Of a stretch of 64,000 nucleotides of DNA, positions 1,018 to 54,372 are shown in pieces. Made by a program: the position numbers and the translations under genes. The notes below the pieces were generated by a model. It made no database searches and was not told the DNA's origin. It was given only the letters and a program-made list of their open reading frames with translations. The stretch comes from Candidatus Peribacteria bacterium (GTDB lineage Bacteria > Patescibacteriota > Gracilibacteria > UBA1369 > UBA12463). The first letter of the stretch is position 1, and each line of letters begins with the position of its first letter. The stretch covers positions 1-64,000 of the forward strand of contig CALRDN010000008.1 in the NCBI GenBank assembly GCA_943354965.1. The letters run 5' to 3'.

Positions 1018-2477
<1,460 letters not shown>

Positions 2478-2556
2478 CAGAGATATAGCCTATGATTCCT
2501 TCGGGAATTATAGGTAAGGTCGACCCCTTATCGTCCTTCGGGATCATAAGCGGGTA

Positions 2557-2596
2557 GTTATCTAGAGTTCTCTACTACATTTTGAATGTTAAGACG
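2557..2596 (+). other. 3' arm of the 16S precursor processing stem
   Basis: Complementary to 903-944 over about 35 bp with few mismatches. It starts about 80 nt after the 16S 3' end. Two local hairpins lie between, around 2487-2517 and 2524-2550. Confidence 0.85.
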
Positions 2597-2657
2597 CCGA
2601 AAGGCAGGAGCCCTTAGCGTAAGGGCTTTTCTTTTACATCACGTTTCGTTTTGCCAT

Positions 2658-2734
2658 GGGGACATAGCTCAGCTGGCTAGAGCACCTGCTTTGCAAGCAG
2701 GGGGTCCGGGGTTCGAATCCCCGTGTCTCCACCA
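2658..2734 (+). tRNA. tRNA-Ala(TGC)
   Basis: Complete cloverleaf: acceptor GGGGACA/TGTCTCC, D arm GCTC...GAGC, anticodon stem CCTGC/GCAGG with loop TTTGCAA (anticodon TGC), T arm GGTTCGAATCC and encoded CCA. It lies downstream of 16S, as in many rRNA spacers, although the 23S gene has moved away. No separate promoter is evident, so it is probably co-transcribed with 16S. Confidence 0.97.
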
Positions 2735-2755
2735 AATTTTTGCGAAGCAAAAATT
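2735..2755 (+). other. Hairpin directly after tRNA-Ala CCA
   Basis: AATTTTTGC-GAA-GCAAAAATT forms a perfect 9-bp stem immediately after CCA, followed by a short T-rich stretch (CCCGTTTT). It may be a terminator or a 3'-processing hairpin. Similar perfect hairpins follow the tRNA genes ending at 6510 and 23481. Confidence 0.6.
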
Positions 2756-2889
2756 GATCCCATTCCCGTTTTCGGTTCGGGCTTTTTGTCGTATCTGATT
2801 TTTAAGTAGCACGAGAATCAGATGCTTCGTCCTAAGTCTATGTCCGTTTTGCTATCTTTTTGCTGTACATTTGGACACACTCTAAGGTC

Positions 2890-3663
2890 TTACTTCTTCA
2901 TTCCTTCGGCCTCCATAAACTTTTTTACATCCTGAATCGTTCCCATAAATTGTGATGGGAAGATGATGGTGGAGTTTTTCTCGACGGCGATTTCGGCCAT
3001 GGTTTGGAGGTTGCGGAGTTGGAGGGCGATTGGGTGTGCCATCATGATGTCGGCGGTGTCGGCGAGTTTTTGAGAGGAGAGGAATTCACCCTCGGCGGCG
3101 ATGATTTTGGCACGTTTTTCACGTTCGGCCTCGGCCTGTTTTGCCATAGCGCGCTGCATGGATTCCGGGAGTTCGATGTCTTTGATTTCTACGACGGAGA
3201 CGATGACGCCCCAGCTCTCCGTGTGAGCGTCCAGGACGGTAGTAATTTCTCCGTTGATGGTTTTGCGTTCGCTGAGGATCTCGTCGAGCTGGAAGCGGCC
3301 GACGATGTTGCGCATGGATGTCTGTGCAATCTGATTAATGGCATCCATTACCCGTTCGATGGCGACGATGCTCTTCACGGGGTCGACGATTTTGTAATAA
3401 GCAACGGCGGAGATATCCACTGATACGTTATCTTTTGTGATGATTTTTTGTTTAGGAATTGGCATGGTGATCGTTCGCATGTCGACTTTTCTGACTCGAT
3501 CGATCAGGGGAATCATCCAGTTCAAGCCTGGCTCTTTGACTCCTACGACTTTTCCGAAGCGGAAGATGACACCTTTTTCATATTGTGAAACCGTGAAAAA
3601 TCCACTGATGATGAGGGCTACTATGACGATTATATATGGATATTGGGAGATGAATTCGAGCAT
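2890..3663 (-). CDS. Slipin/stomatin-like SPFH-domain membrane protein
   Basis: The 257-residue product has an N-terminal membrane segment (about 8-26) followed by an SPFH domain: [25 protein letters not shown], the strand [13 protein letters not shown] and [18 protein letters not shown] charged helical region ([21 protein letters not shown]) is the classic stomatin oligomerisation helix. Slipins form membrane microdomain scaffolds, often beside an NfeD protease partner; none is seen here. The next gene on this strand is the P-type ATPase, 26 bp upstream, so the two are probably co-transcribed. A CATAAT hexamer lies 11 nt before the ATG but no Shine-Dalgarno sequence. Confidence 0.9.
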
Positions 3664-3689
3664 GTTTGTGGTGGATTATGATATATACT

Positions 3690-5555
3690 TTAAATTTTTC
3701 CGGTGTGTACGCGCAGCGCATTGAGAATGACGATAATATCTACTACTTCCTGAATTATCGCTCCATAGATTGGTGAGATGTATCCAAGTGCTGCGAGAAT
3801 CATGAAGAAAATGCTAAGCCCCATTCCGGTATAGATGCTTTGTTTGGCTACGGTGAGGGTGCGCCGAGCGATAGCGAAGGCGTCACTTACTCGTTCGATG
3901 TTATCTACCATAATGACGATATCTGCTACTTCGGAGGTTGCCGTAGAGCCGGTAGAACCCATAGCGATTCCTATGTCTGCTGCGGCTAATGCTGGTGCGT
4001 CATTGATGCCATCTCCCACCATGACGACCGGCGATGACTCTCTTCTGAGGCGTTCGATATGCCTAAGTTTATCGTCCGGAAGGCATTCGGCGATCACTTC
4101 ATGTACGCCGGCCTGTTCGCCAATATGATCCGCTACCGCTTTGCGATCACCAGTGAGCATAATTGTTCTCTGTACGCCATTTATATGCAGTGCTTCAAAA
4201 AGCATTTTTACCTCTGGACGTACGGTATCTGCGAGATAAATCGTTCCGAGGAATTCTTTTTCACTTGCAAGATAGAGTGCCATTTTTCCCTCGTTCTTGA
4301 GGTTTTTTTCGTGTTCTTTTACGTCGCTAGGAATAGCAATATTTTGAGCTTCAATGAGTCCAAGTTTTCCTAAGAAATAGGTCGTATGGTCGAGCCTGCC
4401 CTTTGCTCCGCTCCCGATAATTTCCTCAAATTCTGTCGGATAGGTTAGTGCTATGTTGTGTGCTTTTGCGTATTGAATTAATGACCGTGCAATGACGTGA
4501 ACCGATACTTGATCGAGTGATGCCGCAATCTGGATAATTTCTTCCGGTGTGCCTTTTGAGGCTTTGATCTCCGTGATGTTTGGTACACCGAATGTGAGTG
4601 TTCCCGTTTTGTCGAAGACGAACGTTTTGGTATTTCCGAGGGTTTCGAGCGCTCCGCCATTTTTGATGATAATACCTCTTTTTGCCGCTCTACTCATTCC
4701 CGAGACGATTGCGATTGGAGTGGCGAGAATCAACGGGCAAGGAGTTGCGACGACGAGCACGGCTAGGAGGCGCATGCTGTCATCTCCTAGAGTCCAGGCA
4801 ACTCCGGAGAGTAATAGTGTGATGATAGTAAACCATCCACTATATCTATCAGCGAGACGAACTAAAGGTGCCTTTGTTTTTTCAGCATTTTCTACGAGGC
4901 GAATAATTTGTTCGTATTGACTATCCTTGCTAACGTGAATTGCTTTAATCTCGAGTACATTACCTTTATTAATACTTCCACTCATTACATGACTGTTTGG
5001 TCCTTTTTCTACTGGCATTGATTCTCCGGTGAGAGCCGCTTCATCTACAGGTGAGTTTCCCTCTACGACTATTCCGTCTACCGCGACTACTTCCCCAGGT
5101 TTCACAACAATGATGTCACCAATAGCAACTTCGCTAACCGGTATGCTTTTTAAATTTCCATTTTCTTTTCTATGTGCTTCGCGCGGAGCATTGGATATAA
5201 GCGCTGTAAGTTCTTTTTTTGCTCGTGATAGAGCGAAATCTTCCAGGGCTCTTCCTCCCGAGAGCATAAGTACAATTACCATACCTGCGAGGTATTGATC
5301 CGTTACATAGGCAGTAACAATCGCCGTAAGCGCAATAATATCTGCTCCAAAGTTTCCTTTTCGTAATGCCCCTAAAATTTCTATGAATACAGGAATGGCC
5401 CCGACTATGAGAAGTACTCTGAAAATTTCCATAGCAATATATTCCAACCCCTGTGTGCGCAAAATAGCCCAGGCGATAATACTTATGAGAGAGGCAATCG
5501 CGATTCCATATTCAATGGAGAATGAGCGTAGGGATTTTTTTATCTTGTCTGTCAT
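3690..5555 (-). CDS. Heavy-metal-translocating P1B-type ATPase without N-terminal metal-binding domain
   Basis: At 621 residues it carries the full P-type core: actuator TGES (176-179), phosphorylation DKTGTLT (Asp315), and hinge GDGINDAPAL near 520. The P1B membrane motif reads TPCP (271-274) in ATPCPLILATP rather than CPC, and the P1B-specific HP dipeptide in the nucleotide domain is HV (SVHVIAR). No GxxCxxC ferredoxin-like metal domain or His-rich tail is present; the protein begins directly with membrane helices. TPC-type P1B pumps exist in several phyla but their metal specificity is not settled, so I give no substrate. It is followed by the slipin gene on the same strand. Confidence 0.9.
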   Translation of the reverse strand: MTDKIKKSLRSFSIEYGIAIASLISIIAWAILRTQGLEYIAMEIFRVLLIVGAIPVFIEILGALRKGNFGADIIALTAIVTAYVTDQYLAGMVIVLMLSGGRALEDFALSRAKKELTALISNAPREAHRKENGNLKSIPVSEVAIGDIIVVKPGEVVAVDGIVVEGNSPVDEAALTGESMPVEKGPNSHVMSGSINKGNVLEIKAIHVSKDSQYEQIIRLVENAEKTKAPLVRLADRYSGWFTIITLLLSGVAWTLGDDSMRLLAVLVVATPCPLILATPIAIVSGMSRAAKRGIIIKNGGALETLGNTKTFVFDKTGTLTFGVPNITEIKASKGTPEEIIQIAASLDQVSVHVIARSLIQYAKAHNIALTYPTEFEEIIGSGAKGRLDHTTYFLGKLGLIEAQNIAIPSDVKEHEKNLKNEGKMALYLASEKEFLGTIYLADTVRPEVKMLFEALHINGVQRTIMLTGDRKAVADHIGEQAGVHEVIAECLPDDKLRHIERLRRESSPVVMVGDGINDAPALAAADIGIAMGSTGSTATSEVADIVIMVDNIERVSDAFAIARRTLTVAKQSIYTGMGLSIFFMILAALGYISPIYGAIIQEVVDIIVILNALRVHTGKI

Positions 5556-5641
5556 GCTATTTGTCGTTATGAATGCTAAAATTATCCTCTTGTTTCTCCC
5601 ATCGTCAATCCATTTTTTGTTTTATTTTCCCCGTTTTTCGC

Positions 5642-5647
5642 TATAAT
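5642..5647 (+). promoter_or_regulatory. -10 box of rsmE, leaderless spacing
   Basis: TATAAT ends 6 nt before the ATG at 5654. Transcription normally begins about 7 nt after a -10 hexamer, which places the start at the A of the ATG. No good -35 at 17 bp is visible. This also argues for the ATG at 5654 over upstream alternatives. Confidence 0.6.
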
Positions 5648-5653
5648 CACCTT

Positions 5654-6379
5654 ATGAGCATTCATCGATTTTTTCTTACACCACAGGATATTGTTAATGA
5701 AGGTGCGTTTACTATTACTTCCGAGGAGTTAATGCATCAATGGAAAAAGGTTCTTCGTTTTGGAGTCGGAGAGGAGGTTATTCTTTTTAATGGTAGTGGT
5801 AACGAATTCAGAGGGGAGATTATAAGTATCTCTAATAAGGCCATTCACGGGAAAATTTCTTCTGTTGTGACGTGTGACACTGAACTTTCTACAAAAATTG
5901 TACTTGCCCAGAGTATCCTCAAGAATCCCGAAAAGTTTGAGTGGGTGCTGCAAAAGGGGACTGAATTGGGAGTGAGTGAGTTCTATCCTATTATTACCCA
6001 TCGCACGGAGCGACAGTTTTTGCCCAAGCACGAGCGCCTGCAGCGCATCCTCGTTGAGGCTACCGAACAGTGCGGACGATGTATCGTTCCTATTTTACAT
6101 GAGCCGATGAAATTTGAGGCGTTTTTGAAGCATATTGCCGCGGAGAAACCGATGCTTCTTATTCCTCATACTATAGGAGGGAAATCAATTGATACCTTGA
6201 AGATGGTACAAAAAAAGCCTGCCGTTCTCTGTATTGGTCCTGAAGGGGGGTTTGATGATAAGGAAGTTGAAGAAGTCAAAAAAGCTGGTGGCATATCCGT
6301 TACGCTTGGTAAGCGAATATTGCGCTCTGAGACGGCTTCGCTAGCAGCGGTAACTTTGTTGGCTGCGCAAATTGAATAG
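5654..6379 (+). CDS. rsmE: 16S rRNA (uracil-1498-N3)-methyltransferase RsmE
   Basis: The 241-residue product is a SPOUT-class methyltransferase that methylates U1498 in the 16S decoding centre. It has an N-terminal PUA-like barrel (MSIHRFF...; VILFNGSGNEFRGEI) and the C-terminal trefoil knot with QKGTELGVSEFYPIITHRTE, the EQCGR motif, LCIGPEGGFDDKEVE (SAM loop) and LGKRILRSETASLAAV. An upstream in-frame extension of 27 residues is possible but does not resemble the family. Upstream is the divergent P-type ATPase; downstream is a pair of tRNA-Ala genes. Confidence 0.93.
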   Translation: MSIHRFFLTPQDIVNEGAFTITSEELMHQWKKVLRFGVGEEVILFNGSGNEFRGEIISISNKAIHGKISSVVTCDTELSTKIVLAQSILKNPEKFEWVLQKGTELGVSEFYPIITHRTERQFLPKHERLQRILVEATEQCGRCIVPILHEPMKFEAFLKHIAAEKPMLLIPHTIGGKSIDTLKMVQKKPAVLCIGPEGGFDDKEVEEVKKAGGISVTLGKRILRSETASLAAVTLLAAQIE

Positions 6380-6433
6380 ATCTAGTTGCATTTTTCCTCT
6401 AAAACCTCTTTACTATTTGTGGTCAGATTTTGT

Positions 6434-6510
6434 GGGGACGTAGCTCAGTTGGCTAGAGCATCGTCATGGCATGACGGGGGTCGTGGGTTCAAGTCCCATC
6501 GTCTCCACCA
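6434..6510 (+). tRNA. tRNA-Ala(GGC)
   Basis: Acceptor GGGGACG/CGTCTCC, D arm GCTC...GAGC, anticodon arm TCGTC-ATGGCAT-GACGG (anticodon GGC, with the A32/U38 pair typical of this isoacceptor), T arm GTGGGTTCAAGTCCCAT and encoded CCA. Confidence 0.95.
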
Positions 6511-6526
6511 GACACGTTCACGTGTC
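6511..6526 (+). other. Hairpin directly after tRNA-Ala(GGC)
   Basis: GACACG-TTCA-CGTGTC starts at the base after CCA and is followed by CTGACCCCGTTT. It is comparable to the hairpins after tRNA-Leu (23484-23499) and tRNA-Ala (2735-2755). Probably a 3'-processing or weak termination signal. Confidence 0.55.
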
Positions 6527-6551
6527 CTGACCCCGTTTCTAAATACTACAT

Positions 6552-6627
6552 GGGGCTATAGCTCAGTTGGTAGAGCGTTCGGTTCGCAATCGAAAGGTCG
6601 AGAGTTCGAATCTCTTTAGCTCCACCA
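6552..6627 (+). tRNA. tRNA-Ala(CGC)
   Basis: Acceptor GGGGCTA/TAGCTCC, anticodon arm TTCGG-TTCGCAA-TCGAA (anticodon CGC), T arm GAGAGTTCGAATCTC and encoded CCA. It lies 41 nt after tRNA-Ala(GGC), and the next protein gene starts 5 nt after its CCA, so tRNA 3' processing would create the 5' end of that mRNA. Confidence 0.95.
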
Positions 6628-6632
6628 GATAT

Positions 6633-7691
6633 ATGAATCATAAAAAATCAGAACTATATTTTTTACTTATTCTTCTCTTTGGCATTTTCGCCTTAGCTTT
6701 TTTTATTTTCCAGCCTTTTCTCTATGCCCTTATCTTGGCTATAGTTTTTGCAACTGTTTTTCAACCAGTTTATAAAAGAGTGTTTGTTCTTACGCACAAT
6801 AGAAGCGCTTTAGCGGCACTTCTTGCTACTATGTCCGTCCTTGTTATTATTATTGCTCCTCTTCTTTTATTGGGTATGCAAATTTTTCAGGAGGCAACGC
6901 AACTCTATACTTCCCTCGTTGGTAATGGTAATGCAACGGATCTTTCTCGAAGTGTGAATGATGCCATTCAAAATCTCTTAAAACTTTCTCCTGTCCCTGT
7001 AGAATTTTCTATCGACGTCAGTCAGTATTTGAAACAAGGATTGAGCTGGTTACTTCAACATATTGGTCCGCTCTTCGCTAATGTTGCCAGGGTGATGATG
7101 AGTATTTTTATATTCCTTATCGCGCTGTATTACTTATTTAAAGATGGCAATAGGCTCAAGGAGACTATCGTTGCTTTTAGCCCATTGCAGGATATCCATG
7201 ATGAAACTATTTTTAATAAACTGGCACTGGCAATCAACTCAGTAATGAGGGGAAGTCTTACGGTGGCTCTTGTTCAGGGTGCATTAACGGCACTTGGATT
7301 TTTTATTTTTGGAGTTCCTAACGCGGTTCTGTGGGGTAGCGTAGCGGCAATTGCCGCGTTAATCCCGGGCATTGGCACGGCTCTTATTATTTTCCCTGCA
7401 ACTCTTTTTCTTTTTTTCAGCGGAGAAACTTTTTCTGCATTTGGACTTTTTTGCTGGGGTGTGTTGGCCGTTGGACTTGTTGATAACTTCCTGGGACCGA
7501 AGCTTGTCGAACAGGGGATGAAGCTTCATCCGTTTCTTATTCTTCTTTCTATTTTAGGTGGTGTTGGTTTTTTTGGGCCTATTGGGTTTCTTCTTGGACC
7601 ACTCGTTTTGAGTCTGCTTTTTACTCTCCTTGAAATTTATTCTCTTATTAGCGCGGATCATGAACATGACACACGCGTTGAGGCGAAATAA
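6633..7691 (+). CDS. AI-2E family transporter-like membrane protein
   Basis: The 352-residue protein has about eight membrane helices and the AI-2E/PerM (YdiK, YtvI) signature: two N-terminal helices, a soluble middle segment, RVMMSIFIFLIALYYLFKDG, and a C-terminal block with IPGIGTALIIFPATLF, a DNFLGPKLVEQGMKLHP loop and FFGPIGFLLGPLVLSL. The family includes a proposed autoinducer-2 exporter and Na+/H+ antiporters, so the substrate is unknown here. The start at 6633 follows tRNA-Ala(CGC) by 5 nt; an in-frame open stretch through the tRNA is ignored. Confidence 0.88.
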   Translation: MNHKKSELYFLLILLFGIFALAFFIFQPFLYALILAIVFATVFQPVYKRVFVLTHNRSALAALLATMSVLVIIIAPLLLLGMQIFQEATQLYTSLVGNGNATDLSRSVNDAIQNLLKLSPVPVEFSIDVSQYLKQGLSWLLQHIGPLFANVARVMMSIFIFLIALYYLFKDGNRLKETIVAFSPLQDIHDETIFNKLALAINSVMRGSLTVALVQGALTALGFFIFGVPNAVLWGSVAAIAALIPGIGTALIIFPATLFLFFSGETFSAFGLFCWGVLAVGLVDNFLGPKLVEQGMKLHPFLILLSILGGVGFFGPIGFLLGPLVLSLLFTLLEIYSLISADHEHDTRVEAK

Positions 7692-8153
7692 TTACTCTCT
7701 TAGTAGTCTCATCTCATTCAGATTGATGACGTTTTTTACCGTGTCGTAATATTCAACTTTGAATTGATCGCCGACGATTTCGATGACCTTAGCGTTATAT
7801 AAAGGTTCTCCTTTCCATTGGGCAATAATATTTGTTCCAACTTTCAAATCATCTTTTGATGGGACGATGTCTTTAATGATACTTTCGCTCGTAAGACACT
7901 GTTGAGCGCCTCTATCATAGGTAACGTTATATCCTCCGGCGCATGTTCCATCGATTTTTCCGCTATACCATATGTTTTTTTCTCTCTCGGCAAAAACTCT
8001 AGTTCCGCTTGGAAGTCCGATGAAGCGACTTGTTACTCCTATAATGATGACAAGTCCAAGAAAGCCCAATAGAGATCTTTTGGCCCATTTCCTGTAGTGC
8101 ATTGTGTTTTTCATGAGTGGAGGTGAGTTTGAGTGAATAAACTTCTGCGTCAT
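7692..8153 (-). CDS. Membrane-anchored protein with two Tudor-like repeats
   Basis: Up to 153 residues, with one N-terminal transmembrane helix (about 26-46). Two repeats of about 45 residues follow with the pattern G-x-x-V/I-x-A-x-W/Y-x-G/A-K/V-I...V-x-Y-D (GTRVFAEREKNIWYSGKID...YNVTYDRG, then GTNIIAQWKGEPLYNAKVI...FKVEYYDT). This is the strand pattern of Tudor/agenet or DUF4537-like small barrels. The Met at 8114 (MKNTMHYRK) may be the real start, since a TATTAT hexamer sits right against the upstream ATG. Function unknown; a bacterial extracytoplasmic Tudor-like pair is uncommon. It ends one base after the AI-2E gene, convergently. Confidence 0.6.
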   Translation of the reverse strand: MTQKFIHSNSPPLMKNTMHYRKWAKRSLLGFLGLVIIIGVTSRFIGLPSGTRVFAEREKNIWYSGKIDGTCAGGYNVTYDRGAQQCLTSESIIKDIVPSKDDLKVGTNIIAQWKGEPLYNAKVIEIVGDQFKVEYYDTVKNVINLNEMRLLRE

Positions 8154-8267
8154 TATAATAGGTAGCTACCCCCAAGTCTAATTCTCGTTTGACTTACGTG
8201 GGCTTTTTCTATAGCTTATTGCTTGCTTGGAAGCTGGCTGTTCGGTAATGTAGCCATCACAAGATAC

Positions 8268-8344
8268 GGGTGATTAGCTCAGGTGGTTAGAGCGCAGTCC
8301 TGATAAGACTGAGGTCCGTGGTTCAAGTCCACGATCACCCACCA
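8268..8344 (+). tRNA. tRNA-Ile(GAT)
   Basis: Acceptor GGGTGAT/ATCACCC, D arm GCTC...GAGC, anticodon arm CAGTC-CTGATAA-GACTG (anticodon GAT), T arm CGTGGTTCAAGTCCACG and encoded CCA. In many bacteria tRNA-Ile(GAT) lies in the 16S-23S spacer; here it stands alone between the two rRNA units. A weak promoter candidate (TTGCTT 8223-8228, N17, TAATGT 8246-8251) precedes it. Confidence 0.97.
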
Positions 8345-8351
8345 TGATAGT

Positions 8352-8594
8352 ATGAATAAACTCCTCTCTCTCTTTCTCGGTCTCCCCATCGCTATACTTC
8401 TCATCAAGTATCGTCGTAATGTGGGGGATTTTATTGGTCCTGTGGATTTTGCTGAGCGATACCTAGGGAGTGGGGGGACCTACTCACTTGTTATCATTAT
8501 AGCTTTCATGGTCTTCGTCCTATCCCTTATGTACGCCTTTGGGACCTTCCAGGAAATATTTGGTGGCATGGCGACGCCTTTCACCGGGGCTTAG
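8352..8594 (+). CDS. Small two-helix membrane protein, unknown function
   Basis: An 80-residue protein with two hydrophobic segments (about 3-18 and 45-65) joined by a basic/acidic loop (KYRRNVGDF...DFAERYLG) with a GSGG turn. I do not recognise a family. The ATG lies 7 nt after the CCA of tRNA-Ile, so the mRNA probably comes from processing of a tRNA-mRNA transcript. The hydrophobic organisation and tidy reading frame support a real gene. A dyad beginning at its stop codon (TAGAC.CTAGC/GCTAG.GTCTA, 8592-8628) may end the transcript. Confidence 0.6.
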   Translation: MNKLLSLFLGLPIAILLIKYRRNVGDFIGPVDFAERYLGSGGTYSLVIIIAFMVFVLSLMYAFGTFQEIFGGMATPFTGA

Positions 8595-8656
8595 ACGGTC
8601 GTTTTCTAGCTTTAGCTAGCCCAGTCTAGACTTATGAATCTTTTCTGAAAATTCTC

Positions 8657-8685
8657 TTGACGCCCTAGCTTCCCATCAGTAGTAT
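8657..8685 (+). promoter_or_regulatory. 23S-5S rRNA promoter (TTGACG-N17-TAGTAT)
   Basis: TTGACG (8657-8662) and TAGTAT (8680-8685) are 17 bp apart. TATACA, shifted by 3 bp, is an alternative -10. This promoter lies about 370 bp before mature 23S and shows that 23S-5S does not depend on the 16S promoter. The leader contains CTTTAAC repeats near 8703-8720 that may act as boxA. Confidence 0.65.
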
Positions 8686-8828
8686 ACACCAGCACGTGAC
8701 CTTAACTTTAACTTAACTTCACGCATTGAAATTTTCTCTCCTTTCCTTGGCTAATAGGCCAACGCACAATCTTTTGTTCATACACCCTTCCGTTTAGATT
8801 CGGACATATAGGGATTATGGATAAGAGA

Positions 8829-8853
8829 GTGTGCGGAGAAGCACACTTTTTTT
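8829..8853 (+). terminator. Intrinsic terminator-like hairpin in the 23S leader
   Basis: GTGTGC-GGAGAA-GCACAC is a perfect 6-bp stem followed at once by seven T residues. It lies between the 23S promoter and the 23S processing stem, where unmodified polymerase would stop. It may act as an attenuator overcome by rRNA antitermination, or end a leader RNA of about 160 nt. Confidence 0.6.
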
Positions 8854-9054
8854 GTCCCTTGAAAATTCGGATGATTAAAATGCAATCATGCAAATCAGTA
8901 AAATGTAATGCAATGAATGCAATTTCACAAATATATATACTATTAAACCTGGTATATATATGGATAAAACATACAATAGTATACACTCATGTGTATGCGG
9001 TGATCTTTCTTTAGGAGGTAGTTACCTTTGGTAATTGCTTGTTAGAGAGAAAAG
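8854..9054 (+). other. 5' arms of the 23S precursor processing stem
   Basis: Two segments pair with sequence beyond 23S. 8854-8926 (GTCCCTTGAAAATTCGG...) pairs with 12174-12242, and 9030-9054 (GGTAATTGCTTGTTAGAGAG...) pairs with 12053-12078. Together they form a long interrupted duplex around 23S, as expected for RNase III processing. 5S lies outside it. Confidence 0.8.
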
Positions 9055-9057
9055 ATT

Positions 9058-12047
<2,990 letters not shown>

Positions 12048-12052
12048 ATATT

Positions 12053-12242
12053 CTTTTCTCTTATTAACAAGCAATTATTAGAGGTAATGCAAATTACCAA
12101 TCATAGTTGTTTCGCACACATATGAGCGTTAGAATTTGAATTTCAGTTTTTAAACTGTCTTGTTTGTCTAAGTAAAATTGACATTCATTGACTTCTATTA
12201 CTGATCCATATACGTTTTAATCATCCGAATTTCGAGGGGACA
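12053..12242 (+). other. 3' arms of the 23S precursor processing stem
   Basis: 12053-12078 (CTTTTCTCTTATTAACAAGC...) and 12174-12242 (...TTTTAATCATCCGAATTTCG) are the partners of 9030-9054 and 8854-8926. The roughly 95 nt between the two arms show no gene. Confidence 0.8.
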
Positions 12243-12273
12243 CAAAATTGTTCCTTTTACAATAAGCGTCGCC

Positions 12274-12391
12274 GTCTTGGTAACTCTAGAGAGTGGGGTA
12301 CACCTGTTCCCATCCCGAACACAGCAGTTAAGCCGCTCTTCGCCGATGATACTCACGCACAGTCGTTGGGAAAGTAGGGCGTTACCAAGAC
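12274..12391 (+). rRNA. rrf: 5S ribosomal RNA
   Basis: Helix I is GTCTTGGTAAC/GTTACCAAGAC, enclosing the conserved CACCTGTTCCCATCCCGAACAC loop and GGGAAAGTAGGGC. The length of 118 nt is standard. It is transcribed with 23S, with only the 23S trailer between them. Confidence 0.95.
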
Positions 12392-13763: not shown

Positions 13764-14327
13764 CTATGCTGCCTTTGCTGTAGGGGCTTTCCCGGCTTTG
13801 GCTTTGCCTACTACGCTAATGGCTTGTTTGGCGAGCTGCGGAAGGTTCTTCCCATCATCGCTGATTTTGGCAATTTCTTCAGGTGGGATGCCCATTTTAA
13901 TGGCTTCCTGTTTGATTTGTTCCATGTTTTTGGCGAACATTCCGGCACTCATTTTGTTTGCCTGAAAGACATAATCGGCAGCATCTCCAACAACAGGGAC
14001 TACTCCAATAGCGAAATCGGCGACCTGTAGGGCGATTATTTTGAGGTAGCTCATGGCACCGAGATCTGCATGTTTAGCTTCTGCGAGGAGGTATAGTCCA
14101 GCGATAATAGAGGAGGCACCATCACCTTCTACTGGTATAAGTCCAACTATCACGTCGAGACCGAAGGTATCGAGTGCTGTAGCAACGACATCAACTCTTT
14201 CTGCTGAGCTTTTCGCTTTTTTTAATCTCTCTAATACTTCTAATTGTTCCGGTGTTCGTAACGTATCTTTATCTCTTTCAATTGAATTCTCCTCTCCTGA
14301 ATCTCCTTGAGTATCAAGTGGTGACAT
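13764..14327 (-). CDS. DUF4112 domain protein
   Basis: 187 residues. The region about 45-140 matches the DUF4112 pattern: a repeated G-(L/V)-(I/V)-P-V-x-G-D motif (GLIPVEGDGASSII and GVVPVVGDAADYVFQANKMS) on hydrophobic helical hairpins, with SAGMFAKN at the end. The N-terminus is acidic (GDSGEENSIERDKD) and the C-terminus Lys/Ala-rich. The family is membrane-associated and of unknown function. It stands between lepA and the PrgI-like gene, all leftward. Confidence 0.65.
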   Translation of the reverse strand: MSPLDTQGDSGEENSIERDKDTLRTPEQLEVLERLKKAKSSAERVDVVATALDTFGLDVIVGLIPVEGDGASSIIAGLYLLAEAKHADLGAMSYLKIIALQVADFAIGVVPVVGDAADYVFQANKMSAGMFAKNMEQIKQEAIKMGIPPEEIAKISDDGKNLPQLAKQAISVVGKAKAGKAPTAKAA

Positions 14328-16263: not shown

Positions 16264-16269
16264 ATTGTA
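16264..16269 (-). promoter_or_regulatory. -10 box of lepA
   Basis: TACAAT on the minus strand ends 9 nt before the lepA ATG, leaving a leader of only about 3 nt. No clear -35 is present. Confidence 0.45.
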
Positions 16270-16283
16270 CCAAGCATTCTGCT

Positions 16284-16312
16284 TTGCGAAAAGCCGAAAA
16301 TCATGATATAAT
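16284..16312 (+). promoter_or_regulatory. Promoter of the solute-binding protein/SpoIIE operon
   Basis: TTGCGA (16284-16289), 17 bp, TATAAT (16307-16312), then about 29 nt to the ATG at 16342. It is divergent from and closely packed with the lepA promoter. Confidence 0.55.
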
Positions 16313-19496: not shown

Positions 19497-19554
19497 TTTT
19501 TTCTTATGTCAGCTGATCATCAAATGTAATTTTTTCTTATGTCAGCTGATCATC
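19489..19554 (+). repeat. Perfect 33-bp tandem duplication across a stop/start junction
   Basis: 19489-19521 and 19522-19554 are identical 33-bp units. Each contains the TAA stop context of the phosphatase gene and the ATG plus first codons (MSADH) of the next gene. The first copy therefore creates a 7-codon mini-frame, MSADHQM followed by stop, ahead of the real start at 19539. It looks like a recent slippage or duplication event. Confidence 0.9.
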
Positions 19555-20087
19555 ATTTTTCTGAAAAAGATCCAGCGGTCCTGGAGGCAGTAGAGAAGCA
19601 ATATCTCTATGGTCGTACAAAAGATGTACTTCAGAATATTGAAAAGGATGTTCTTGGAATCCTTAAGGACGTTATGCGGTGTCATCGACTCGAAATGGAT
19701 TATCTGGATTCGGTATCTACTCTTGAGCTTATTTCCGTAGCCTTAGTGCGTTTGCGCGAGAGGCATTTTTCTGAAAGTGAAATGAAATTGCTTGTTGTTT
19801 TTAAGCGACGAATACGTTTCGCTATAGATCAATTTTTAGACGTATTTCATTTTTCTGATTCTGAATACGGAAGGACGGCCTCAAGATTGATGTCTGCCCT
19901 ATATTCGCTTAATACGCAGGTGTTGAGTGCTCGTGATTTTTTGACTGAGAGTGATGGAATGGGCGCGAAGGTTATTGAGGGTGCACTTAATACTATCGAT
20001 ATTATCGAAAGTATTGCCGCAGCTGTTCGGTCGAAACTAACGCCGAAAAAAGACAAGGAAGGCGCGTCCCACACTAAGCAGGTATAG
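19539..20087 (+). CDS. Helical protein of unknown function, third gene of the SpoIIE operon
   Basis: 182 residues, predicted largely alpha-helical, soluble, rich in Leu/Glu/Arg, with a basic tail (KLTPKKDKEG). No motif I recognise. It follows the SpoIIE phosphatase by 42 bp on the same strand; the start is duplicated by the 33-bp repeat, and the second ATG opens the long frame. Its stop codon lies one base from that of the convergent glyA. Operon position suggests a partner or target of the phosphatase, which is inference only. Confidence 0.7.
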   Translation: MSADHHFSEKDPAVLEAVEKQYLYGRTKDVLQNIEKDVLGILKDVMRCHRLEMDYLDSVSTLELISVALVRLRERHFSESEMKLLVVFKRRIRFAIDQFLDVFHFSDSEYGRTASRLMSALYSLNTQVLSARDFLTESDGMGAKVIEGALNTIDIIESIAAAVRSKLTPKKDKEGASHTKQV

Positions 20088-23606: not shown

Positions 23607-24227
23607 TTATATCCTGATATTTACCCTTCCTTGATAGATTCCTCTGTCCAGGATTTCTTCTAGTACTAGGGGAGCCATGGCTTTTCGTAATTGAGGGTGA
23701 CTGCCGGTGATTTTCATGAGGCGCTTGACCTCGGTGGAGCTGTTGTCAGAGATTCGCGGGAAGATGGTTGTTTCGATCTTACCTTTATGGATTTCTCCTT
23801 CTTTGTCGGAGCCGGCGACGCGGAGGAGCCGGCGTTGGAATTCTTCTGTGAGGTCGTAAATATAGGGATCTTCTTTTTCTGCTCCCCAGGTACAGACCCT
23901 TATTTTTTCCGCTAATTCTGGCTCGAAGTGATCAAAATTCATAAGGAGCCATCTTCTCCTGTCTTCAAGTGAGGCTTCGGGATTTTTTAGCTCATTCCGC
24001 GAGTGGACGAGATATAAAATTTCGTCATGGAGTTTTCTCCTTAGGGCCTCCTCATGTGTACGTACTCCGATTCTTACATGTCCGATATGAGATGGATCAC
24101 CGGTTAATGTGACTATGGGAACAATTTTGTCCGTTGCCTGTAAATATCCAGTCAAATCGACAATGGTTCGGTCAGTGTAATTCATAGATGCGGATTTTAG
24201 GTCGTAATATTGGCTTTGTAAAGGCAA
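23607..24227 (-). CDS. Nucleotidyltransferase-like protein (HxGH superfamily)
   Basis: 206 residues. PIVTLTGDPSHIGHVRIG resembles the G-x-F-D-P-x-H-x-G-H motif of NadD/CoaD-type adenylyl/cytidylyltransferases, and RISDNSSTEVKRLM near the C-terminus resembles the second motif (ISSTxIR). The middle (HDEILYLVHSRNELKN, LLMNFDHFEPELAEKIRVC) would be the Rossmann-type strands. Substrate is not recognisable; nicotinate-mononucleotide adenylyltransferase is the nearest guess. A shorter start (Met at 24185) is possible. It lies between two tRNA-Val genes on the opposite strand and ends 5 bp from the first. Confidence 0.55.
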   Translation of the reverse strand: MPLQSQYYDLKSASMNYTDRTIVDLTGYLQATDKIVPIVTLTGDPSHIGHVRIGVRTHEEALRRKLHDEILYLVHSRNELKNPEASLEDRRRWLLMNFDHFEPELAEKIRVCTWGAEKEDPYIYDLTEEFQRRLLRVAGSDKEGEIHKGKIETTIFPRISDNSSTEVKRLMKITGSHPQLRKAMAPLVLEEILDRGIYQGRVNIRI

Positions 24228-40091: not shown

Positions 40092-40511
40092 ATGGTAGAT
40101 TCTGGAAAGATTCTTGCTCTCGATTACGGTTTACGCCGAATAGGTTTGGCAATTACTGATATGAATCGGACTATGGTTTTTCCTCGTCCACTTTTGGAAC
40201 ACAAAGGTGAGGTATTTGTGTTTGAGCAACTCAAGAAAATGATTGCCGAGGAGGGGATTACTGCCATAGTTTTGGGATACCCCTATGATGATAGACATAT
40301 AGAAACTAGTCAGACCGAAAAGGTGAAAGCTTTTGGCACGCGGCTGGAGGCCGCAGTTTCCGTTCCCGTTTTCTTCGAAGACGAGAAGTATACCACTGCT
40401 CAAGCAGAAGCCCTTTTGGATTCGTATGGTTATGATTATAAGGAGAAGAAAACTCAACGCGACAGCATAGCTGCGATGCTTATTTTGCAGTCTTATCTAG
40501 ACAGGGTATAA
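40092..40511 (+). CDS. ruvX: Putative pre-16S rRNA nuclease/Holliday junction resolvase YqgF (RuvX)
   Basis: 139 residues, RNase H-like fold. Motifs: ILALDYGLRRIGLAITD (first catalytic Asp11), IVLGYPYDD, and FFEDEKYTTAQAEALL with the second acid (EDE), then KKTQRDSIAAMLILQSYL with the final Asp. The family processes the 5' end of 16S rRNA in E. coli. Its start codon abuts the rplI stop, indicating translational coupling. Confidence 0.92.
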   Translation: MVDSGKILALDYGLRRIGLAITDMNRTMVFPRPLLEHKGEVFVFEQLKKMIAEEGITAIVLGYPYDDRHIETSQTEKVKAFGTRLEAAVSVPVFFEDEKYTTAQAEALLDSYGYDYKEKKTQRDSIAAMLILQSYLDRV

Positions 40512-40512
40512 T
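40485..40512 (+). promoter_or_regulatory. Promoter for the VirD4-like gene
   Basis: TTGCAG (40485-40490), 16 bp, TATAAT (40507-40512), inside the end of ruvX. Only 9 nt separate the -10 from the ATG, giving a leader of about 2-3 nt. Confidence 0.6.
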
Positions 40513-46524: not shown

Positions 46525-47151
46525 TTAAATTAAATTCCTTTCCTTCAAGAAATGATATTTTGCCTCACCTTCTTTTTCATAGGTCATACGTTCAAGGTAG
46601 CGGGCGATGAGGTCGATTTCGATATTTACCTCGTCTCCAACTTTTACGTTTTTCATATTAGTTGATTCGATGGTGTGGGGGATGAGTGAGACTTGGAATG
46701 TGGTGTCCTCGAGTTTGGAAATCGTTAGGCTGATGCCGTTGATAGTGACTGAGCCCTTGAAGGCGAGATACCGGGCGAGGTCGGGCGGGAAGGTGATAGT
46801 GATTTCGTGTTTGTCATTTATAGATGAGATTGTACCTGTTCCGTCTACGTGACCCTGGACGAGATGGCCGTCTATTCCTTTGGAGAGAGTGAGAGAAGTC
46901 TCGAGGTTTACCTCAGTATTTGTCAGATATTTTTTGGCGGTTGTTCGTTCGATGGTTTCCGGAATGGCGTCAAATATGAGCGTATCGCCATTTTTTGCAC
47001 GTACCGTCAAGCATGTTCCGTCTATGGCGACCGAATCTCCAATATTCACTTTTGAAGCTGTTTTTGGAGATAGAATAGAAAACGTAACTATGTCGCCTTC
47101 TTTCGTTATGGTCTTGATTTGGCCTAGTTCTTCAATGATTCCGGTAAACAT
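46525..47151 (-). CDS. ribE: Riboflavin synthase alpha subunit
   Basis: 208 residues with the internal duplication of the family: two barrels, each with a G-I-I-E/G-x-V-x-I-x-G-x-x-L-T pattern (MFTGIIEELGQI...GDSVAIDGTCLTV and GHVDGTGTI...GSVTINGISLTI). It dismutates two lumazines to riboflavin. The -10 box ends exactly 6 nt before the ATG. No ribD, ribA or ribB is in this window, so the earlier steps must be elsewhere or the precursors imported. Confidence 0.95.
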   Translation of the reverse strand: MFTGIIEELGQIKTITKEGDIVTFSILSPKTASKVNIGDSVAIDGTCLTVRAKNGDTLIFDAIPETIERTTAKKYLTNTEVNLETSLTLSKGIDGHLVQGHVDGTGTISSINDKHEITITFPPDLARYLAFKGSVTINGISLTISKLEDTTFQVSLIPHTIESTNMKNVKVGDEVNIEIDLIARYLERMTYEKEGEAKYHFLKERNLI

Positions 47152-47157
47152 GGCTCT

Positions 47158-47163
47158 ATTGTA
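47158..47163 (-). promoter_or_regulatory. -10 box of ribE, leaderless spacing
   Basis: TACAAT on the minus strand ends 6 nt before the ATG (AGAGCC between). A -35-like TTAATT lies about 17 bp further upstream. No FMN riboswitch fits between promoter and start. Confidence 0.55.
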
Positions 47164-51401: not shown

Positions 51402-52305
51402 GGAATGTTTTGATGTCGCATGCATTTTTCCCTTCCAGCTGAAGTTCTAACGGTATAATTGCGCCTTGTTTTGTACCTATTTGCAATTCGTCTCCCGTTA
51501 CTCGCATCATTCCGGGCTTGAGTGTTGAGTTGGATTCTCCTCTATTTACTGAAAGGATTTTGAGTCTCTTTCCTCCCCATGTCGTGAAACAAGATGGCCA
51601 TGGAGTATAGGCTCGAATTTTGTTACGAATTTCTTTTGCGCTTTGCTCGTTCCATTTGATACATCCATCATTCTTTTCAATTTTTCCGCAGGTAGTTGCT
51701 TTGCTGCTGTCTTGTCTGATGGGTGTAAGTGTTCCTTCCAGATAGTCATTTATAACGAGCGGAGCCATGGCGCCTCCTAGTACGGCGAGTTTTTTGTATA
51801 GGGTTTCAAAAGTATCATCTTCTTGTATTTCATATTTTTTCAAAACAAGCATGTCGCCCTCGTCCATTTTTTCATTCATCTTCATGAAAGTAATTCCGGT
51901 TTCATTGTCGCCATTGAGAAGGGCATGTTGAATAGGGGAGGCTCCTCTATATTTTGGTAACAGTGAGCCGTGAATATTGATCGATCCGTATTTTGGGAGA
52001 TCAAGTATGTTCTTAGGAAGGATCTGTCCGTAGGAAATTACCACAAATAGATCCGGTTGAAGTTCTTTAAGTAACTTGAAAAATTCCTCGTTTTTCCTGA
52101 TCTTTTCAGGTTGCAGTACGGGTAAATTTATGGTCTGAGCGTATAGTTTTACGGGTGTCGGCTCGAGTTTTTGATGACGTCCAACTGGCATATCTGGCTG
52201 AGAAACGACCGCTTTTACTGATAGTTCAGGGCTTTTTGACAATGCATCTAACGCCGGTATGGCGAATTCTGATGTCCCGAAAAATACGACTTGATATTTT
52301 TTCAT
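51352..52305 (-). CDS. fmt: Methionyl-tRNA formyltransferase
   Basis: 317 residues. Formylates initiator Met-tRNA. VFFGTSEFAIPALDAL, SYGQILP, INIHGSLLPKYRGASPIQHALLNGDNETGIT with the catalytic Asn and His, and MDEGDML with the Asp. The C-terminal tRNA-binding domain is present (RAYTPWPSCFT...). Start at 52305 with a TATAGA hexamer exactly 6 nt upstream; the 25-bp gap to nrnA holds both divergent -10s. Confidence 0.96.
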   Translation of the reverse strand: MKKYQVVFFGTSEFAIPALDALSKSPELSVKAVVSQPDMPVGRHQKLEPTPVKLYAQTINLPVLQPEKIRKNEEFFKLLKELQPDLFVVISYGQILPKNILDLPKYGSINIHGSLLPKYRGASPIQHALLNGDNETGITFMKMNEKMDEGDMLVLKKYEIQEDDTFETLYKKLAVLGGAMAPLVINDYLEGTLTPIRQDSSKATTCGKIEKNDGCIKWNEQSAKEIRNKIRAYTPWPSCFTTWGGKRLKILSVNRGESNSTLKPGMMRVTGDELQIGTKQGAIIPLELQLEGKNACDIKTFLNGNWEKILAQPELGN

Positions 52306-52311
52306 AAAATT

Positions 52312-52319
52312 TCTATAGT
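52312..52319. promoter_or_regulatory. Overlapping divergent -10 boxes of fmt and nrnA
   Basis: Within the 25-bp gap, TATAGA on the minus strand (52317-52312) ends 6 nt before fmt and TATAGT on the plus strand (52314-52319) ends 11 nt before the next gene. They overlap, so the two promoters probably compete. Confidence 0.4.
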
Positions 52320-52330
52320 TCCATCTTCAT

Positions 52331-53350
52331 ATGCAAGATATCACAACTACATTCCGCGAAGCAAAAAAACTGATTGAACGATCGGATAAAGTTTTGATGA
52401 TTTCTCATCGACGACCGGATGGAGATACATTGGGAGCGAGTATTGCTATTCACCTATTATTGCAGAGTATGGGTAAGCAGACGACGTTGGCCTGTATCGA
52501 CGTGCCATCTGACCGTTATGCTTTTCTTCCGGATATACGTAGTTTTGTTCGTGAGTTTGATTTCCGTCAGTATGACCTCATTATCGTTTCGGATGCGGGT
52601 GCAAATTATATGACACAGTTTCATACGATATATCCTGATATTTTCTCGGGAGAGGTTCCAGTTCTTAATATTGATCACCACGCCTCGAATGATAATTTTG
52701 GAACGCTTAATATGGTAGATCCTGTTGCTCCTTCGGCGACGGTTCTCATGTATCGATGGTTTAAATTTATGAATGTCGCCCTCACTCCTTCTATAGCGAC
52801 GGCGCTTCTGACGGGTATTTATAATGATACTGGAAGTTTGATGCACTCGAATACTACCGAAGAGGTCTATCAGCAGGCGGCTGATCTGGTTGCACACGGG
52901 GCCCGAGTAAGTACTATCGCTCGATCAATGTTTCGTACTAACTCTTTGAGTTCCCTTAAGTTATGGGGAAGAACATTAGAAAATATGACGGTATCACCCG
53001 AGGGTGTCTGTATGTCTGTTCTGACAATGCGTGATTTTGAGGAGAGTGGTGCTCACCCGGATGAGTCTGGTGGAGTGATTGATTTGCTTAACGCGGTGCC
53101 GGATACGCAGTATTGCCTCCTTCTTGCTGAAGATGGGAAGGGGAATATCAAAGGATCATTCCGAACAAGACGCGATGATGTGGATCTCACTATTCTAGCC
53201 GGAAATTTCAATGGGGGCGGTCACAAAAAAGCAGCCGGGTTTAGTATTCCCGGAACTATTCACAAAGAAACGATGTGGAAAATTATTACTGACAAAGTTC
53301 TTCCTGCCGGATCTCAGTTTCCGATACAAGGTTTGACCCTCCAGCAGTAG
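52331..53350 (+). CDS. DHH/DHHA1 phosphoesterase, NrnA-like
   Basis: 339 residues. DHH motifs: ISHRRPDGDTLGA, IVSDAGA, NIDHHASNDNFG, then DHHA1 C-terminal GGGHKKAAGFSI. Closest to NrnA (nanoRNase and pAp phosphatase), which finishes RNA degradation in organisms lacking Orn. Next in the same direction is a membrane protein gene with a strong promoter. Confidence 0.9.
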   Translation: MQDITTTFREAKKLIERSDKVLMISHRRPDGDTLGASIAIHLLLQSMGKQTTLACIDVPSDRYAFLPDIRSFVREFDFRQYDLIIVSDAGANYMTQFHTIYPDIFSGEVPVLNIDHHASNDNFGTLNMVDPVAPSATVLMYRWFKFMNVALTPSIATALLTGIYNDTGSLMHSNTTEEVYQQAADLVAHGARVSTIARSMFRTNSLSSLKLWGRTLENMTVSPEGVCMSVLTMRDFEESGAHPDESGGVIDLLNAVPDTQYCLLLAEDGKGNIKGSFRTRRDDVDLTILAGNFNGGGHKKAAGFSIPGTIHKETMWKIITDKVLPAGSQFPIQGLTLQQ

Positions 53351-53361
53351 TTTGTTACAAT
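53333..53361 (+). promoter_or_regulatory. Consensus promoter with leaderless spacing (TTGACC-N17-TACAAT)
   Basis: TTGACC (53333-53338), 17 bp, TACAAT (53356-53361), then CTGTCC and ATG at 53368. Transcription should start at the A of ATG. The best single example of a leaderless promoter in the window. Confidence 0.75.
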
Positions 53362-53367
53362 CTGTCC

Positions 53368-54372
53368 ATGTTCAGGAAGATTCTCACTATCGTTATTTTT
53401 TCCGTGTTTGTCCTTTGCAGTTTGCCTTTTTTCTTGGGCCTTGCGATTTCACATACGTTCTTTTCTCGTTCTTTTTACACGGGAACTTTTTTGAATACGG
53501 CTTATGCTCCTACCATAAACATGGCTTCTAAGAGTATTGCGGATATTGACCCTGCTTTTCAGAAGCATTTTTCTCAGGATGAGATTAGTCAGCTTTTGCA
53601 GACTCATTTTACGAAGGATCTTCTTAGAAACACTGTCGATAAGACTTCTTCAGCGTTCAGTCAGGACATTGCTGCCGTCTCTCCTGATTCTTCCAAGAAC
53701 GATAAACTTACATTTACTATTGATTTCACTCCGTATCAGGAACCGCTAATGTTATTTATTTCTGATATGGTTCAGCAAACCCTGGATCGTCTACCTCCTT
53801 GCGCGGCCGGGGCTAAACCGGAGGTGGTAGGAGTTTTTCCAAGTTGCTCGTTAGCTTCTTGGCAGACAGATGATTTCAAGAAAAAGTTCAGCGATGAGTT
53901 CAAGAAGGATTATCAGCAGAAAATTTTTGCCAATCCGGTTGGTCCCGGGGAGACCGCTTTTGTCAGGAATCTTGTGCTCGACGTACCTCGCAGTGATGTC
54001 GCCTTTGCTCTTCATCAGTTTGAAATGATGAATGTCTATACCGTACTTTTCGTTCTCGCCTTTATTTCTCTCATGCTTCTTCTTTGGATTCGCAATTTTT
54101 ATACCGGCCTTACGCTTTCGAGTCTAATGTTGGTGACCGCTTCTGTTCTTGGCCTTCTTCTCGCTTTGATACTTTCTAGAGTTGTTTCATTATTTCCTCC
54201 CGAAGCTATTACTAATCCTACGGTCTCTCAGGCTACTTTCGATCTGGCTCGTGATCTACTAAGTGTGATTTTGATGTCCTTCGCAAAGGTCTATGCTGTT
54301 ATTTTGGGTATCGGGATGCTCTGTAGCGGAGCAATGTATTATTACGCCAATCGTTACCTCAAAAAATCATGA
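53368..54372 (+). CDS. Membrane protein of unknown function
   Basis: 334 residues. An N-terminal helix (about 4-26), an extracytoplasmic domain of about 180 residues, then three helices (about 215-235, 242-268, 298-325). The outer domain contains two Cys residues close together (PPCAAGAKPEVVGVFPSC) that could form a disulphide. No family recognised. A consensus leaderless promoter precedes it and the next gene overlaps its stop by 4 nt (ATGA). Confidence 0.7.
   Translation: MFRKILTIVIFSVFVLCSLPFFLGLAISHTFFSRSFYTGTFLNTAYAPTINMASKSIADIDPAFQKHFSQDEISQLLQTHFTKDLLRNTVDKTSSAFSQDIAAVSPDSSKNDKLTFTIDFTPYQEPLMLFISDMVQQTLDRLPPCAAGAKPEVVGVFPSCSLASWQTDDFKKKFSDEFKKDYQQKIFANPVGPGETAFVRNLVLDVPRSDVAFALHQFEMMNVYTVLFVLAFISLMLLLWIRNFYTGLTLSSLMLVTASVLGLLLALILSRVVSLFPPEAITNPTVSQATFDLARDLLSVILMSFAKVYAVILGIGMLCSGAMYYYANRYLKKS

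Follow-up and report, generated by a model that had tools for sequence, protein, structure and literature searches.

Promoters of the sigma70 type whose −10 hexamer ends 6 nt (6–10 nt) before the ATG form a real class in this Candidatus Peribacteria bacterium and should give leaderless mRNAs, as a first, sequence-only reading of the DNA had proposed. We regard it as very probable that these are ordinary promoters of the housekeeping sigma factor at which transcription would start with the A of the ATG, and that the order to which the genome belongs initiates translation without Shine–Dalgarno (SD) pairing. Only a minority of genes is concerned, and for these the leaderless interpretation probably holds. 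It was an overstatement to call such promoters widespread: they account for about 15% of the ATG genes, a figure that depends on the promoter model and on the accuracy of the start codons, and for 27% of the modelled promoters. The mechanism as such is known but apparently undescribed so far in this lineage of Patescibacteria, and it is found here within an SD-independent order. In the following, N6 stands for 6 nt between the −10 hexamer and the ATG, and the window is the whole stretch of 64,000 nucleotides that was analysed.

The promoter at position 53333

The promoter that had been singled out as the cleanest case, TTGACC-N17-TACAAT-N6-ATG, is correct to the letter. The sequence TTGACCCTCCAGCAGTAGTTTGTTACAATCTGTCCATG occupies positions 53333–53370, and a sequence search returned this one exact copy. 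Its parts, as read from the sequence, are:

53333..53338, + strand: −35 hexamer TTGACC, in the 3′-terminal part of the DHH/DHHA1 gene that lies upstream
53356..53361, + strand: −10 hexamer TACAAT, 17 bp past the −35 hexamer and 6 nt ahead of the ATG
53368..54372, + strand: predicted leaderless gene of 334 aa with a hydrophobic N terminus (MFRKILTIVIF...)

No Pfam match was found for the 334-aa protein. From the −35 through the −10 hexamer all 29 bases are identical in the congener G001. The arrangement TA...T-N6-ATG is retained by the orthologs in G001, G003, G002, G006 (another genus), and G020, the last belonging to another family and sharing 26% identity. The orthologs in G005 and G007 show N8 with an imperfect hexamer, that in G008 has a leadered promoter, and the ortholog comparison with G014 yielded no clear TA...T-N6-ATG case. 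The coding-potential gene caller picked an internal start for this gene; the ATG at 53368 was assigned from the orthologs, several of which carry the conserved N-terminal residues M[FLI]RK and start at the equivalent ATG.

Distance between promoter and start codon

Of the 1.16 Mb genome, 709 kb (about 61%) including the window were analysed, giving 545 genes starting with ATG, and 13 relatives were sampled with 60–200 kb each. Genes were called by hexamer coding potential and no upstream signal was used, so that the motif had no influence on the choice of the start codon; in return, some of the starts are wrong. The hexamer TANNNT was present at N6 in 60 of the 545 genes, as compared with a mean of 22 at N12–35 and 11 at N60–140. 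This positional enrichment goes beyond what the AT content predicts: among the first 363 genes TANNNT occurred at N6 in 40, whereas 20.7 were expected from the column composition (z=4.2), distant positions averaging 8. In addition, the N6 hexamers had a mean −35 match of 2.48/6 exactly 17 bp upstream over a baseline of ~1.6, a coupling that AT-richness by chance would not yield.

A promoter model consisting of two blocks with free position was then fitted by expectation-maximisation. De novo it learned TTG(A/C)(C/A)(A/T)-17-TATAAT, i.e. TTGACA/TATAAT, with a spacer of 17 bp in 74%. The modelled distances between the −10 hexamer and the ATG in the 545 genes are bimodal: 80 fall to N5–10 (36.4 of them to N6), 11 to N11–20, 141 to N21–40, and 62 to N41–90, and between the N5–10 and the N21–90 groups the range N12–19 is almost empty. 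Most modelled promoters thus lie at N21–90, which corresponds to leaders at least roughly 14 nt long. For N5–10 the controls gave 0.3–1.4 (block-shuffled sequences), 3.1 (antisense strand), and 0 (internal Met codons). Applied to 1,124 genes of the 13 relatives, the model returned the same two peaks with almost nothing at N12–18; for G030, about half of whose sampled bases read N, the leaderless estimate is based on 44 genes. Promoters were almost absent where the gap to a co-directional neighbour was <10 and were commonest behind an opposite-strand neighbour.

As controls, 110 genes of E. coli gave no N6 excess and had SD motifs in 57%, and 85 genes of Deinococcus radiodurans MP1 gave a peak at N5–7. 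Such a peak is known for the genus Deinococcus, and the parallel drawn earlier with Deinococcus was thereby reproduced with the same spacing.

Other promoters in the window

Further sites of both promoter classes are present in the window. The grades refer to the posterior of the model.

40485..40512, + strand: promoter TTGCAG-N16-TATAAT of a VirD4/HerA-like gene, N9, ATG at 40522; very high posterior
16264..16292, − strand: promoter TTTTCG-N17-TACAAT of lepA, N9, ATG at 16254; high posterior
24194..24222, − strand: promoter TTTACA-N17-TAAAAT, N8, ATG of the gene at 24185; posterior just short of that of the VirD4/HerA-like gene
5642..5647, + strand: −10 hexamer TATAAT of rsmE, N6, ATG at 5654, weak −35; leaderless assignment somewhat favoured
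47158..47163, − strand: −10 hexamer TACAAT of ribE, N6, ATG at 47151, weak −35; leaderless assignment doubtful, slightly below even
52291..52319, + strand: promoter TTGATA-N17-TATAGT of the DHH gene, N11, ATG at 52331, conserved in G001; posterior a shade above that of the VirD4/HerA-like gene
13764..14327, − strand: TTGACT-N17-TATAAT, N27 from the ATG, representing the more numerous leadered class, without SD; maximal posterior

The VirD4/HerA-like gene (Pfam DUF87/TraG-D_C) is nearly identical in G001 from the promoter through the ATG. lepA contains the LepA_C domain and rsmE matches Pfam Methyltrans_RNA, while ribE carries lumazine-binding domains; the −10 hexamers of lepA and ribE are conserved in G001. 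The gene starting at 24185 had no Pfam match. For the N11 promoter of the DHH gene a leader of about 4–5 nt is predicted.

The N6 spacing had also been claimed for rsmE, ribE, a GNAT gene, fmt, and an O-antigen ligase-like gene. Together with the site at 53333 the hexamer lies 6 bases from the ATG in 6/6, but the quality of these sites is uneven. rsmE and ribE have good −10 hexamers accompanied by weak −35 elements. TATAAA of the GNAT gene and TATAGA of fmt do not fit TANNNT, and the fmt site scores next to nothing. The TATCAT of the O-antigen ligase-like gene is not kept in G001, and the start codon of this gene is uncertain. These last three sites, half of the six, are weak. By contrast with these, lepA and the VirD4-like gene, named among the cases with 7–11 nt, both turned out to be N9 with high scores.

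Two further observations concern start regions in the window. fmt and the DHH gene are divergent with start codons 25 bp apart (52306–52330), so that the −35 element of each promoter must fall in or at the coding sequence of the other gene; the interval is nearly identical in G001. Furthermore, a tandem duplication of ~30 bp at about 19509–19560 covers the gene start at 19539. It results in two copies of ATGTCAGCTGATCAT with the same T-rich stretch ahead of each, whereas G001 has a single copy.

Sequence context of the start codons

RNA polymerase would bind TTGACA-17-TATAAT and start about 7 nt past the −10 hexamer. With this start an N6 mRNA would begin with 5′-AUG, and N7–10 would give 0 to about 4 extra nucleotides. 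A ribosome carrying fMet-tRNA and IF2 would then have to engage the 5′-terminal AUG directly, as in known leaderless mRNAs. The sequence itself shows the anatomy of the promoters, their bimodal spacing and conservation, the restriction to AUG, and the depletion of SD; where exactly the mRNAs begin and how the ribosome engages them we infer, the transcription start being taken from the usual distance between −10 and +1. The remaining genes with a promoter would have short leaders (≥ about 14 nt), likewise without SD; G is rare in the final ~21 nt of these leaders, and the base at −1 is mostly U.

Three independent features are in keeping with leaderless mRNAs. The first is the base composition ahead of the ATG, which differs between the two classes. 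G is scarce throughout −21..−1 of the leadered genes. At −6..−2 it amounts to 25% in the N6–7 genes vs 7% in the leadered genes (p=7e-12), and the missing G depletion in the leaderless genes is expected if this stretch is absent from the mRNA. The base before a transcription start is usually a pyrimidine, and a pyrimidine is present at −1 in 85% of the leaderless genes. The N6 excess over the mean of N12–19 is 4.3x for ATG, 0.84x for GTG, and 0.73x for TTG, i.e. there is a peak for ATG only.

The second codon is preferentially AAA or AAT in leaderless and GCA in leadered genes. In this genome (G000) A at +5 is found in 65% of the leaderless vs 34% of the leadered genes, and a GCN second codon in 29/160 leadered vs 3/66 leaderless genes. 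An A-rich stretch downstream of leaderless starts was considered and rejected: apart from the second codon, the two classes do not differ over +4..+30 (p=0.75). U at −1 is present in 54% of all ATG genes of G000 and in 66% of the leadered ones, and G accounts for 2–15%, mostly <10%, over −22..−1 of its ATG genes. Such a strong start context without SD (U at −1, low G) is common to most of the sampled relatives.

The window and G001 are syntenic, with an identity of about 80%. In the leaderless set, which for this comparison comprises five promoters only, the −10 and the −35 hexamers each agree with G001 in 30/30 bases, compared with 80% in those upstream regions for which no promoter was called. 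The start codons of this set are identical in 15/15 bases and positions +4..+15 in 90%.

Distribution in the order and the phylum

The pattern TTG-N20-TANNNT-N6-ATG was counted in 89 genomes of the order and gave 2,042 matches; with its elements placed at N15 the count was 937, and with the pattern reversed it was 882. The families f1, f4, f14, f13, and f15 are rich in the pattern; in this census a significant N6 excess was absent in the families f3, f6, f7, f9, and f16. In a sample of the phylum outside the order 2,038 matches were counted vs 815 for the reversed pattern, and 38 of the 111 genomes were individually significant at 0.01. The reversed-pattern control is the weaker one outside the order because it is not spacing-matched.

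Could most transcripts start farther upstream?

The leaderless promoters could be auxiliary, with most transcripts of these genes starting farther upstream and being leadered. Nineteen of the 66 leaderless sites lie 0–50 bp behind a co-directional gene, which makes read-through transcripts likely, and weak second promoters are possible. However, 31 of the 66 sites are situated behind an opposite-strand gene, and the 6 nt ahead of the ATG bear no trace of the selection against G seen in leadered genes. We therefore judge this explanation improbable, although it is the one that survives best.

The 16S rRNA tail and SD motifs

The 16S rRNA ends with GGATGGAATACCTCTTTT at 2459–2476, lacking CCUCC. 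Two features are relevant here:

2469..2473, + strand: altered anti-SD core CCTCT (canonical CCTCC), the same in G001 and G002 of the same genus
2479..2482, + strand: 16S trailer AGAG, complementary to CTCT at 2470–2473; predicted hairpin fold, with matching changes in relatives

The rRNA genes are unlinked (1018–12390), the 16S gene at 1018–2476 and the 23S gene at 9060–12046 being separated by about 6.6 kb that hold tRNAs and several protein genes.

SD genes are depleted in this genome (5% vs 11% in the control). GGAG/GAGG occurs in 1.3% at −20..−4 vs 5.5–7.7% farther upstream. A replacement SD fitting the CCUCU tail (AGAGG, AAGAG) was rejected as well, as these motifs are depleted, not enriched. 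In 12 of 14 sampled genomes, including most with CCTCC, SD motifs at −18..−5 are depleted relative to positions farther upstream; of the exceptions one showed no difference and one a reversed value (27-gene sample). The whole lineage thus appears to start protein synthesis without the usual ribosome-binding sequence. Loss of the ribosomal protein bS21 was considered as a possible explanation: this genome has a weak S21-like match below the cutoff, and the presence of bS21 in the order is patchy. Almost every genome sampled from the order has an S1-like protein, scoring below the family cut-off.

The 16S tails of the order read CCTCC (majority), CCTCT, TCTCC, TCTCT, or TTCCC across five families, and several apparently independent anti-SD variants (families f1, f4, f14, f15, f16) stand beside many SD-scarce CCTCC genomes. 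In 30 of the 30 tails compared the anti-SD core folds with the trailer behind it (CTCC/GGAG, CTCT/AGAG, TTCCC/GGGAA), and most altered cores have matching trailer changes. It looks as though the constraint on the 16S 3′ region came from a hairpin of the pre-rRNA and not from SD pairing, and such a core–trailer hairpin may exist in other bacteria too.

The altered anti-SD, CCUCU, could have driven the shift to leaderless genes. G000 and G001 combine CCUCU with many leaderless genes, the combination of an altered core (TCTCT, TCTCC) with many leaderless genes recurs in genomes of f15 and f4, and on 14 genomes the state of the anti-SD looked promising as a predictor of the leaderless load. In the 89-genome census this was gone: the load is no different between 15 altered and 40 canonical genomes (p=0.29), nor within families (p=0.67; paired contrasts of pattern counts only). 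Moreover, the canonical genomes G025, G031, and G072 are among the richest, whereas the f16 genomes with TTCCC have almost none, and relatives with canonical CCUCC are depleted in SD motifs too. We consider a driving role of the anti-SD marginally less probable still than an auxiliary role of the promoters. Both traits fit better as consequences of an order-wide SD independence, given the equal load and the SD depletion in canonical genomes. The link drawn earlier between the leaderless pattern and the altered anti-SD is not supported; the two agree only weakly, in that each is compatible with initiation independent of SD.

Start codons and chance

The promoters could be real but the true starts be situated farther downstream, the ATG beside the −10 hexamer being part of an ordinary leader. 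Start calls are computational, and for the gene at 53368 the caller itself preferred an internal start. Against this, distant orthologs conserve the residues that immediately follow this ATG, the start codons and the following bases of the leaderless set are conserved in G001 as given above, and a mere leader would not need an excess specific to ATG; this explanation is accordingly very unlikely.

A chance origin of the N6 hexamers from A+T-rich DNA ahead of start codons is hardly conceivable and already refuted at the population level, although upstream regions are A/T-rich and G-poor and the GNAT, fmt, and O-antigen ligase examples look random (a chance origin is possible for single weak N6 sites), since the excess is position-specific over column composition, coupled to a −35 element at 17 bp, near zero in shuffles, confined to ATG, fully conserved in the −10/−35 columns, and found over N15 in the 89 genomes.

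Relation to known systems

Ordinary promoters with leaderless transcripts hence remain our preferred reading, which may be compared with described systems. TANNNT boxes about 12 bp upstream of leaderless genes were reported in 207 of 953 genomes, the groups named excluding candidate phyla, and such TA-led genes amount to about 20% in Actinobacteria and about 40% in Deinococcus-Thermus (Zheng et al. 2011; PMC3160421). As there, TANNNT about 12 bp before the start is read here as a −10 box of a minority class; unlike there, a clear −35 element is present at 17 bp, hardly any SD genes exist, and an empty zone divides the leaderless from the leadered promoters (PMC3160421). In Deinococcus-Thermus −10 regions adjoin ORFs, and the −10 hexamer beside the ATG drives leaderless mRNA; that evidence is experimental, whereas the present class is known from sequence in an unrelated lineage lacking SD (PMC12340547).

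Ca. Peribacter riflensis has been described as SD-scarce, with 7% SD and no CCUCC (PMC10783764). It resembles the present genome as a member of the Peregrinibacteria with few SD genes and a non-CCUCC 16S tail, and in both respects the present genome fits class iv of that study (SD-scarce organisms lacking CCUCC); here, however, order members with CCUCC are SD-scarce too and the leaderless load is independent of the tail. No promoter description for Peregrinibacteria was found in that paper (PMC10783764). For leaderless promoters in Patescibacteria no description was found in the open literature, subscription papers and preprints being mostly outside the coverage. Mycobacterium tuberculosis is reported likewise to have a large leaderless minority alongside leadered genes (PMC3898074).

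Meaning for the order

Leadered genes of mycobacteria use SD; the leadered genes here do without. From the empty zone between the promoter classes two distinct initiation modes are predicted. We tentatively propose, as a model less likely to be right than wrong, that the order uses two modes without SD–anti-SD pairing. One would rely on an AUG at the very 5′ end, the other on a leader that is poor in G, about 14 nt long or longer, and has U as its last base; distances in between would be forbidden. The anti-SD core would be kept mainly as a processing hairpin with the 16S trailer and could drift if the trailer changes too. In our preferred reading, as distinct from this model, erosion of the anti-SD is a separate, repeated consequence of order-wide initiation without SD pairing.

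Discussions of leaderless initiation usually concern lineages such as Actinobacteria and Deinococcus, in which SD is used as well. The leaderless class described here belongs to a lineage with essentially no SD, with several apparently independent anti-SD changes, and with many relatives whose anti-SD is intact and apparently unused. Loss of the anti-SD, loss of SD, and leaderless mRNAs, as a rule treated as one question, are therefore separable, and loss of the anti-SD does not predict leaderless mRNAs. In practical terms, gene callers relying on SD may misplace starts in these genomes, in which the N6 promoter can serve as a guide to the start codon.
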